Virus record (IMG/VR): IMGVR_UViG_3300040960_000750
Coordinates: 1 to 25,929 of that record
Source of the DNA: a virus
Direction: 5' to 3' (one strand)
Length of the DNA stretch: 25,929 nucleotides
Positions 18,460-19,843 of the stretch are shown here, one piece after another (position 1 is the first letter of the stretch; each line of letters begins with the position of its first letter). The notes under the pieces were generated by a model, which ran no database searches, was not told where the DNA came from, and saw only the letters and a list, made by a program, of their open reading frames with translations. The translations under genes were made by a program, and so were the position numbers.

Positions 18460-18993
18460 TTACTTGCCAACTTTACCAAAGTCACTTAATTTTTGACTTT
18501 TATCAAAGTTTTTATCAACTACAGTTGCTTTTTTCGCAGGCTTTGTACTAATACTTTTTTCAAGTTGCTGTATAAGTCTGCGTTTTTCTTTTGCATTTAG
18601 TTTTAGTGCTGCATCCTTGGTTTGAACATACGCACTAGATGCTTTTGCAGTAGGTTCAGTACTAGCAGCTGGCTTTACTTGTCCTTGCATAGCTTCTTTT
18701 GCCTTTGCCATAAAGATTTGTTGTAATCTTTTTGTGTTAAATGGAACTGTTTTATCAATATTGCTAGAATCAACATTTTTCTTGTTAAAAAAGTCTTCTA
18801 GGTCAGAATAACCTGCTTGTTTTAGGCTAATTCCTTTAGTACCTAGATAAGAAGCAAACTCATTACCAAGATTATCAGCAGTTGCTTTTAAATCTTTCTG
18901 TCCAGCAATGTTTGCTTTACGCAGTTGTCTACTTCTTTTACTAAAAGGATTAAACTCGTTAAGATTTAAACTAGATACTTCATTAATACGCAT
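18460..18993 (-). CDS. Hypothetical protein, Lys/Ala-rich
   Basis: This 177-residue basic protein begins MRINEVSSLNLNEFNPFSKR. It has a helical middle part (LEDFFNKKNV, TKRLQQIFMAKAKEAM), a Pro/Ala/Thr-rich linker (residues about 105-125), and a lysine-rich C terminus with LNAKEKRRLIQQLEKSI. No enzymatic motif or membrane span is seen. An MRINE-type N terminus recurs in small marine T4-like phage proteins of unknown role. It has a late-promoter-like CATAAATAC 20 nt upstream, so it is probably a late, possibly virion-associated protein. Its end abuts the convergent gp51-like gene with no clear terminator. Confidence 0.7.
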   Translation of the reverse strand: MRINEVSSLNLNEFNPFSKRSRQLRKANIAGQKDLKATADNLGNEFASYLGTKGISLKQAGYSDLEDFFNKKNVDSSNIDKTVPFNTKRLQQIFMAKAKEAMQGQVKPAASTEPTAKASSAYVQTKDAALKLNAKEKRRLIQQLEKSISTKPAKKATVVDKNFDKSQKLSDFGKVGK

Positions 18994-19013: not shown

Positions 19014-19022
19014 TGTATTTAT
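19014..19022 (-). promoter_or_regulatory. Putative late promoter for the 177-aa gene
   Basis: The minus strand reads CATAAATAC, 20 nt before the ATG at 18993. It directly follows a perfect AATATCTAC/GTAGATATT hairpin (19024-19044). Confidence 0.6.
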
Positions 19023-19023
19023 G

Positions 19024-19044
19024 AATATCTACTTCGTAGATATT
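19024..19044. terminator. Perfect 9-bp hairpin with TTC/GAA loop
   Basis: AATATCTAC and GTAGATATT flank a 3-nt loop. The loop is UUC on plus (giving a cUUCGt-like turn) and GAA on minus. Only a short AGTTTT follows on plus, and the late promoter follows on minus, so the orientation and terminator role are uncertain. An insulator between the RNA segment and the 177-aa gene is plausible. Confidence 0.4.
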
Positions 19045-19103
19045 AGTTTTCGCTATCGCTCAAACTAAACACTTCGTTTTTTTTAATAATGTATAAGATA
19101 AAA

Positions 19104-19123
19104 GCGTTTTACGAAGTAAAACG
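19104..19123 (-). terminator. Probable terminator closing the gp47-gp46-GIY-YIG transcript
   Basis: The minus strand has CGTTTTAC-TTC-GTAAAACG, an 8-bp stem, followed by CTTTTATCTT. It lies downstream of the structured 19148-19403 segment and is the first terminator-like element after the nuclease operon. Confidence 0.5.
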
Positions 19124-19143
19124 TATTAATTTCATGTAGATTA

Positions 19144-19405
19144 ATTAGTCAGACGGAACCTACACTGTGGTTCCATCATCTCGAAACTTCATGTGAGTTG
19201 CATAGCCGAGATCGGAAGTAGGTATTTGACTATGCTACTGGGCTCTGACCTTTCCCAACCTACGTCGACATCACGCAATTGCGCTATCCCCCGCTTCGTT
19301 CCTAGTGCTAAGGGGTTTTTGTAGCATACAGCCTATTGGACTACGTCACACCACCGGCCACGAGCATTACCTCGGCTGATTCTTGACGGGCTTTCGCCAA
19401 TAGTG
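19144..19405 (-). ncRNA. Candidate structured RNA / long structured 3' UTR
   Basis: The gene-free stretch 18994-19408 holds about 260 nt of conspicuously GC-richer, self-complementary sequence with no ORF. Helices, in plus coordinates: 19333-19339/19397-19403 (CTATTGG/CCAATAG) enclosing 19344-19348/19384-19388 and a GCC-GAG/CTC-GGC stem at 19357-19376; 19231-19238/19321-19328 (TATGCTAC/GTAGCATA); 19148-19153/19244-19249 (GTCAGA/TCTGAC) enclosing GGAACC/GGTTCC at 19155-19160/19169-19174. GCATAG at 19200-19205 competes for the same 19230-19235 strand. The minus orientation is favoured because it follows the GIY-YIG stop by 3 nt and ends at a hairpin with a U-rich tail. I found no own promoter. 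It does not look like tRNA, tmRNA or a group I intron core. Function unknown. Confidence 0.55.
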
Positions 19406-19408
19406 TCC

Positions 19409-19843
19409 TTATATTGCCTTGTTTCTGTTTTGAAGTGCCTCTATGAGAGTCTTTGATCCGCCTACACGTACATTAATAATACCGTTATAGTATTCTTCTG
19501 TTTCTAAAACACGCCTGTCAAATTGTTCTTTAGCTTCTAAGTAAGACATTTCTGCTCTTGAACTGCAAAAATATAAAATTTCTCGTGTAAATTTATCTGC
19601 GCCTAACTGTTCCACGTCTGCTTGTAATTTGTCTGACGATCCCCAGTAGTCACGCCAGTCTGATTCTTTGTATCCACGTCTTTTATTCTTTTTGCCTTTG
19701 AGTGGTGGTTTGGTTGTTTTAAATTTTGCTAGTTTTTTGCCTATGTACTTGCGATCATTTGTTGTATTGGTTATCAGATAGACAAACCCTTCATATTCAT
19801 CTGGTATAGTGTCTATTTTTTCACCTTGATAAGTCCAATTCAT
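19409..19843 (-). CDS. GIY-YIG family nuclease
   Basis: This 144-residue protein has the GIY-YIG core as FVYLITNTTNDRKYIGKKLA at residues about 20-39 (Y-x-I then Y-I-G). A lysine-rich loop follows, then ESDWRDYWGSSDKLQADVEQ (about 60-79), FTREILYFC, and a Glu in YLEAKEQFDRR that could be the metal-binding residue. Small GIY-YIG proteins of this type accompany recombination genes in marine T4-like phages; some related proteins are homing endonucleases (T4 Seg family). It lacks a recognisable DNA-binding tail, and no intron is evident here. It may be a free-standing homing nuclease or a repair nuclease. It is last in the gp47-gp46 operon. Confidence 0.8.
   Translation of the reverse strand: MNWTYQGEKIDTIPDEYEGFVYLITNTTNDRKYIGKKLAKFKTTKPPLKGKKNKRRGYKESDWRDYWGSSDKLQADVEQLGADKFTREILYFCSSRAEMSYLEAKEQFDRRVLETEEYYNGIINVRVGGSKTLIEALQNRNKAI

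Follow-up and report, generated by a model that had tools for sequence, protein, structure and literature searches.

Gene content of the locus

The window analyzed in this study is the whole 25,929-base stretch of DNA of an IMG/VR virus record, and it carries T4-like genes that include those for a baseplate hub, gp46/gp47-like (SbcC/SbcD-like) proteins and a late sigma factor. PA5oct and Phosso are among the large T4-like phages whose portal proteins are ~50% identical to that of the window, and the tblastn matches of the portal and GIY-YIG proteins place the window, as judged from sequence, among the T4-like phages. On the minus strand, a gp47-like gene is followed by a gp46-like gene, a 65-aa ORF, a SegE-type GIY-YIG endonuclease gene (19,409-19,843; PF19835, E 5.2e-34), the interval described herein, and an ORF at 18,460-18,993 for which family searches gave no match. 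The interval lies between two ORFs and interrupts no gene, and no tRNA gene was found in the window. The closest named relative of the GIY-YIG protein is encoded by phage Melnitz (70%). The label ‘NAD synthetase’, which this protein carries in PHROG family 447 and in numerous phage records, is probably a spreading misannotation; Pfam assigns the protein to the SegE GIY-YIG family.

An initial annotation of this DNA had drawn attention to a GC-rich interval lacking an ORF, located just after the GIY-YIG stop codon, and had proposed that it forms a structured RNA. The composition is as described, with 44-53% G+C in 200-nt windows of the interval versus 29-39% in the flanking windows, and no ORF of at least 60 aa is listed inside 19,100-19,408. 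Relatives likewise give no sign of coding capacity, as evident by the fact that the 150 nucleotides that begin at GTCGA are open in any one frame in at most 14 of 97 cores. The predicted folding energy does not differ from that of shuffled copies on either strand (z of 0.02 for the minus and -0.04 for the plus strand). Judged alone, the one sequence therefore stays at chance level, whereas the comparison with relatives described below exceeds it.

Relatives of the RNA are numerous in viral contigs

Our first set of blastn comparisons comprised 125 loci, nearly all of which were fetched via the GIY-YIG protein or the downstream protein, and many of these carry, behind the GIY-YIG gene, a segment homologous to the interval. 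A DNA pattern derived from the most conserved stretch matched at least 120 stretches in viral contigs. In total, at least 190 fetched loci carry the core motif, in one copy each. The RNA is located on the minus strand of the window, and its conserved part starts directly after the GIY-YIG stop (19,409). The core, in which ~60 columns are invariant across 97 sequences, is under strong conservation rather than in decay.

Two of the loci that match the DNA pattern (L246 and L247) reside on 335 kb and 153 kb contigs of a Neomarinimicrobiota metagenome-assembled genome, where the RNA lies 201 nt after a GIY-YIG gene. These are probably phage contigs that were binned with this genome.

A pseudoknotted core supported by covariation

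For the core alignment, 16 of the 190 loci were left out because they are cut off or lack a motif, and the remaining 174 were reduced to 97 by similarity. All 97 aligned rows were retained when counting pairs in seven helices (P1, P2, P4, P4b, P5, P6 and P7). Over these helices, 93.4% of cells are paired, compared to 86.8% when shuffled and 30.5-42.1% when the partners are slid by one to three columns. Double changes are observed at 19 of 42 pairs, and the covariation score is 0.224 versus 0.047-0.068 with slid partners. Thus, long-range helices covary in relatives, and the interval is best described as a structured noncoding RNA positioned right after the GIY-YIG gene, in line with the initial annotation.

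The whole RNA of the window (type I, with a class A 5′ domain) is placed at approximately 19,105-19,408, between the base that follows the GIY-YIG stop and a terminator-like hairpin, the foot of which is included. Its 5′ domain (19,330-19,408) includes GGAC/GUCC and CUAUU/AAUAG pairings as well as hairpins, which were recognized by eye in an alignment of 22 distinct class A relatives. Other relatives carry a class B or class C domain at the corresponding place. The 5′ strand of P1 is at 19,321-19,329, and its 3′ strand is at 19,230-19,238. This is the 8-bp helix (19,321-19,328 with 19,230-19,238) that had been noted from the window alone, and it exhibits double changes at all seven pairs counted in the 97 sequences. 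For its five core pairs, 444 of 459 cells are paired and 118 double changes are seen. Further elements are the P2 hairpin (19,289-19,315), with double changes at six of seven pairs and a loop that presents the conserved segment GGAACGA, and the P3v stem-loop (19,270-19,287), which is defined from the core alignment and varies in length between phages from absent to ~90 nt.

P4 is formed by GTAGGT (19,258-19,263) and ACCTAC (19,218-19,223), with 582 of 582 cells paired and three double changes. Because P1 crosses P4, the predicted fold contains a pseudoknot. P4b (19,240-19,256), a GGG/CCC helix closed by the loop AAAGGTCAGAG, is almost invariant, and so is P4; both are nonetheless always paired. 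A proposed second pseudoknot, P7, would join GGTCAGA (19,244-19,250) to TCTGACT (19,147-19,153) and would also cross P4. Its cells are 99.8% paired with no double change, and covariation can hardly test a helix this close to invariant. The 3′ portion comprises the P5 stem-loop (19,178-19,212; 80.2% of cells paired, double changes at three of six pairs), the P6 hairpin GATGGAACC/GGTTCCGTC (19,152-19,177; 99.1% of cells paired) and the terminator-like hairpin with its T-rich tail (19,105-19,123). A hairpin at this last position is common, although not universal, among relatives.

Class B representatives were examined separately by using 74 distinct sequences of the 96 that fit the start motif. 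A mutual-information scan that assumes no structure recovers P1, P2 and P3v from these 74 relatives, with P3v covariation appearing between 192-198 and 202-208, and additionally reveals a helix between the 5′ end and the loop at positions 126-129.

We conclude from these comparative data that the interval most probably corresponds to a real, previously undescribed noncoding RNA of marine phages that adopts a pseudoknotted fold. With its multi-helix fold, its compensatory changes and no ORF, it conforms to what is expected of a large structured phage noncoding RNA. Of the forms originally considered for it, a stable RNA or a long structured 3′ UTR fits the predicted architecture, which ends at the terminator-like hairpin.

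The alternative pairings proposed for a switch are not conserved

The initial annotation had suggested that mutually exclusive helices could permit switching. One strand of P1 was to pair alternatively with 19,200-19,205 (GCATAG/CTATGC). This complementarity does exist in the window, whereas among relatives only 45.5% of cells are paired and the helix is complete in three of 97 sequences. Similarly, ACCTAC (19,218-19,223) was to choose between two GTAGGT copies, which start at 19,263 and 19,163 on the minus strand. Both copies are present, but the second is not kept, as evident by the fact that its pairing involves 75.3% of cells and is complete in only 18 of 97 sequences. Since neither alternative is conserved in the 97 relatives, the argument for a switch that was built on them falls, and both pairings look to be accidental to the sequence of the window.

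A different competing pairing, absent from the initial annotation, joins GTAGGT to an ATCTAC segment that starts the second repeat described below. It can form in 93 of the 97 sequences and has no double change. It is broken in three sequences that carry P4 as GCAGGT, where P4 itself is kept.

A short word is present twice and changes in concert

The 3′ module of the RNA carries the word ACATGAA twice. The first copy, R1 (19,187-19,194; ACATGAAG), is displayed in the P5 loop and is preceded by CTC, whereas the second copy, R2 (19,131-19,137), precedes the terminator-like hairpin and is itself preceded by TCT. The word varies between phages, and both copies alter alike. To count substitutions, a tree was built without the repeats, and it is approximate because such phages recombine. 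Over the seven word columns, R1 has undergone 30 substitutions and R2 29, of which 24 are to the same letter on the same branch in both copies, whereas the adjacent column has undergone 5 (R1) and 24 (R2) changes with none in common. In two loci (L104 and L152), the ~70 nt from R1 to R2 are alike except for a G/A change that is found identically in both copies.

Of 113 distinct type I tails, 112 contain two copies of a word of at least 7 nt (6 in a few cases), and the lone exception (L219) is cut off. About 30 different words occur in 291 loci, with positions 3, 4 and 6 hardly varying, and the pyrimidine triplets that precede the copies (CTC for R1 and TCT for R2) are constant in all three of the core types described below. 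When words were compared with the identity of the adjacent GIY-YIG proteins, 293 close pairs were found to share a word and two to differ; these numbers carry little weight because the pairs derive mostly from near-identical phages. Short-tract gene conversion may also have made the two repeats change together, although the flanks of the two copies stay different (CTC versus TCT). We know of no other example of direct repeats in an RNA that change in concert.

Distinct core types share the twin-word module

Among 80 loci fetched by using the GIY-YIG protein, 30 do not match a profile made from the RNA of the window. In 14 of them, the sequence that follows the GIY-YIG gene is shorter than 210 nt. 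Of the 16 with more sequence, 14 carry another structured-looking RNA at this place, as judged by eye, and two (L059 and L079) do not. Patterns made from the non-matching loci identified 138 type II and 91 type III loci, with a GIY-YIG gene no more than 1.5 kb upstream in 120 and 82 of them, respectively. Twin words are present in the 3′ module of 71 of 88 distinct type II tails and of all 51 distinct type III tails. The remaining 17 type II tails are those in which our script did not find the word, although inspection by eye reveals it in one of them (L352) at least.

The coupling between R1 and R2 is as strong as that between paired nucleotides in both of these types. When all column pairs were ranked by mutual information, the identical-letter R1/R2 pairs were placed 2nd, 5th and 12th for type II and 5th, 7th and 12th for type III. 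Base pairs account for 26 (type II) and 22 (type III) of the top 40 column pairs, and the R1/R2 coupling is level with them.

By eye, 5′ domains are common to types I and II, which makes this RNA a mosaic, and the type I core is not recognizably homologous by sequence to the type III core. A single locus behind a nuclease gene carries a mosaic superfamily with at least three core types. In three additional loci (L056, L069 and L070), the sequence that directly follows the GIY-YIG gene looks structured and its twin words are less clear, and these look like at least one further core type.

Comparison with type III relatives also connects this superfamily with a known motif. The Polynucleobacter-1 RNA (RF01718) corresponds to ~145 nt in the 5′ half of type III RNAs that follow a GIY-YIG gene, with matches in L055 (1465-1611, 107.8 bits), L062 (4460-4602, 99.7 bits) and L058 (4504-4647, 63.4 bits). 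The original report lists this orphan as a probable RNA (Weinberg et al., 2010; PMC2864571). An orphan motif of Rfam is therefore part of longer phage RNAs.

Relationship to other structured RNAs

No family of Rfam 15, introns and tmRNA included, matches the window at the gathering score, and searches at E values up to 10 returned only chance-level matches (window, L040, L250 and L033). Comparison by blastn with 50,697 named phage records likewise yielded no match for three type I queries, and single queries for type II, type III and L056 produced only a 26-nt piece for L056. We found no description of the window's RNA in the literature, where subscription journals and preprints were poorly covered.

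Several known RNAs were considered individually. The RNA of the window is not itself a member of the Polynucleobacter-1 family, since it gives no match that reaches 37 bits and only the type III relatives L055, L058 and L062 pass. The two follow the same kind of GIY-YIG gene, and the type III RNAs that contain Polynucleobacter-1 carry the R1-hairpin-R2 module, whereas the motif as published (PMC2864571) is without this 3′ module. GOLLD and ROOL RNAs, for which Rfam models exist according to a recent account (PMC12286853), give no Rfam match in the window. As portrayed there, they resemble the window's RNA in being large, pseudoknotted, phage-borne and of unknown function. The RNA described herein is shorter (~300-500 nt) and has no tRNA gene in the window. 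Moreover, the known long-range contacts of GOLLD and ROOL are complementary kissing loops, as opposed to the identical repeats found here (PMC12286853). We classify the RNA as a new family among the large phage RNAs, and GOLLD and ROOL are the nearest kind.

The marine T4-like phage Melnitz also carries a structured RNA, which its report describes as a two-piece tmRNA with a glutamine riboswitch (PMC9004378). Unlike Melnitz, the window reveals no tmRNA or glnA riboswitch by ARAGORN or Rfam, and neither program finds a tRNA-like domain or tag frame. The Melnitz locus beside its GIY-YIG gene has no nhmmer match to the window's RNA. The plus-strand segment CCGAGATCGGAAGTAGG is reminiscent of a glutamine riboswitch, but Rfam returns no match for it, and it is the opposite strand that holds the conserved structure.

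The RNA can occur without the nuclease gene

A GIY-YIG gene is present upstream on the same strand in 176 of the 190 fetched loci, 132-611 nt before the motif, and it should be noted that many of these loci were fetched through the GIY-YIG protein itself. Among the 120 pattern-only matches listed, 109 have the gene, and in nine of the 11 exceptions the upstream sequence is shorter than 400 nt. Similarly, 12 of the 14 loci without the gene in the fetched set hold fewer than 400 nt upstream. The remaining two, L158 and L165, hold more than 6.6 kb and are still without it, and tblastn also found no such gene in them.

These two loci, together with three found by a class C pattern (L248-L250), represent the class C RNAs. 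Reading through the ORF lists of L249 and L250 revealed no GIY-YIG gene, and the surroundings differ, with structural-looking ORFs of 1,524 aa (L249) and 879 aa (L250). An unrelated lineage thus carries the RNA without the nuclease, and so the RNA does not depend on this gene and is not simply a homing relic. In both L158 and L165, the next long ORF downstream weakly matches a small terminase (phrog_309, E 2e-4 and 1e-3).

Searches for a partner of the twin word

Within the RNA itself, no complement of the word is conspicuous, as the Watson-Crick run lengths upstream reveal no excess of a locus's own word over swapped words for type I (4.51 versus 4.54), type II (4.51 versus 4.75) or type III (4.74 versus 4.60). 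Complementary words in the flanking DNA of 108 loci are at background level. In the 150 nt 3′ of R2, matches of type I words are slightly longer than those of swapped words (5.87 versus 5.56, sd 0.06, with G-U pairs allowed), and this excess has no fixed place when the 3′ flank is read by eye. Extended complementarity in large contigs was limited to single, non-orthologous coding matches in gp46 (L287) and portal (L316) genes, and all orthologous complementary sites in the fetched parts of 14 large phage records fall on the RNA gene itself, in antisense. Because no complementary strand was found, we infer that the partner acts in trans, which leaves a molecule of the host or a protein.

Possible functions of the RNA

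That the two copies change together suggests that one partner in trans reads both R1 and R2. The RNA would be transcribed from the minus strand, either through a promoter of its own or by processing of a gp47-gp46-GIY-YIG transcript, of which it would be the 3′ end. The pseudoknotted core, together with a 5′ domain that can be exchanged, could serve as a scaffold, while the 3′ module, with R1 in a stem-loop, an intervening hairpin and R2 in the tail, would present one 7-8-nt word twice. A single trans partner would read both copies; this could be an RNA or a protein that binds RNA, and it would differ from one phage or host to another. The phage RNA might thereby act as a two-site sponge, an adaptor or an antisense RNA. 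We assign a probability of roughly 60% to this reading of a large phage RNA that presents one word twice to one trans partner. The presence of ~30 words in 291 loci favors an easily changing partner such as RNA. The stable word positions 3, 4 and 6 are the main point in favor of a protein reader, and suit base pairing equally well.

A more specific protein hypothesis holds that one RNA-binding protein, or one site-specific endoribonuclease that processes or excises the RNA between R1 and R2, recognizes both copies with a specificity that drifts. The semi-fixed positions and the constant CTC and TCT triplets in all three core types are in keeping with such a reader. However, the number of words is large for a protein and no candidate reader gene was found, such that we view this possibility as rather doubtful. 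The GIY-YIG protein in particular is weakly disfavored as the reader, because two locus pairs whose GIY-YIG proteins are at least 95% identical have different words. Regulation in cis seems unlikely as well. A structured 3′ UTR or leader might stabilize or terminate the gp46/GIY-YIG message or regulate the next gene, perhaps with control by a ligand or by a choice of GTAGGT between the ACCTAC of P4 and the ATCTAC of R2, and the location of the RNA directly after the operon in all loci that have the GIY-YIG gene, the terminator-like hairpin and the nearly universal potential for GTAGGT/ATCTAC pairing would all agree with this. Against it, the gene located 3′ of the RNA is not constant (the downstream protein of the window is found at 44 loci only, in many cases by a C-terminal fragment), class C sits among unrelated genes, and the concerted words are left unexplained.

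The initial annotation had also raised the idea that the RNA is a relic of a mobile ribozyme, and we give very little credence to a relic or an active self-splicing or homing element that moved with the GIY-YIG nuclease. Rfam intron models have no match at E values up to 10 in the window, L040 or L250, no gene is interrupted, and the order of P1, P4 and P4b does not fit the helix order of group I introns. The same-strand adjacency to the nuclease gene and the modular exchange of 5′ domains and cores are what such an element could produce, but they have to be set against ~60 invariant columns in 97 sequences and against class C, which has no GIY-YIG gene nearby. An element that functions as DNA, such as an origin, a recombination site or a packaging site with the repeats as iterons, is similarly improbable. 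The direct orientation of the repeats and the proximity of class C to the weakly matched small-terminase gene would suit this proposal, but compensatory changes along seven helices with pseudoknots, G-U pairs included, are a sign of RNA. We also consider it improbable that the RNA is a two-address guide whose fast-changing word base-pairs with host nucleic acid, where the adjacent GIY-YIG nuclease might be the effector in T4-like phages; class C lacks the nuclease. If true, this would represent a new kind of RNA-directed system.

Orphan phage RNAs mostly give no clue to their partners. For the RNA that we propose to present its word twice to a trans partner, evolution appears to have marked the contact, in the form of two predicted single-stranded words that are forced to equal each other and are otherwise free to change. 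What large phage RNAs bind is a long-open kind of question, and here it becomes testable through a 7-nt handle.

Sequences located 3′ of the RNA in the window (19,015-19,067, minus strand) include the hairpin TAGTTTGAGCGATAGCGAAAACTA, the hairpin ATATCTACGAAGTAGATAT and a late-promoter-like segment, CATAAATAC. The GAGCG...CGAAAA hairpin, for which our pattern gives a single occurrence in the window, recurs 3′ of the RNA in most relatives belonging to several types.
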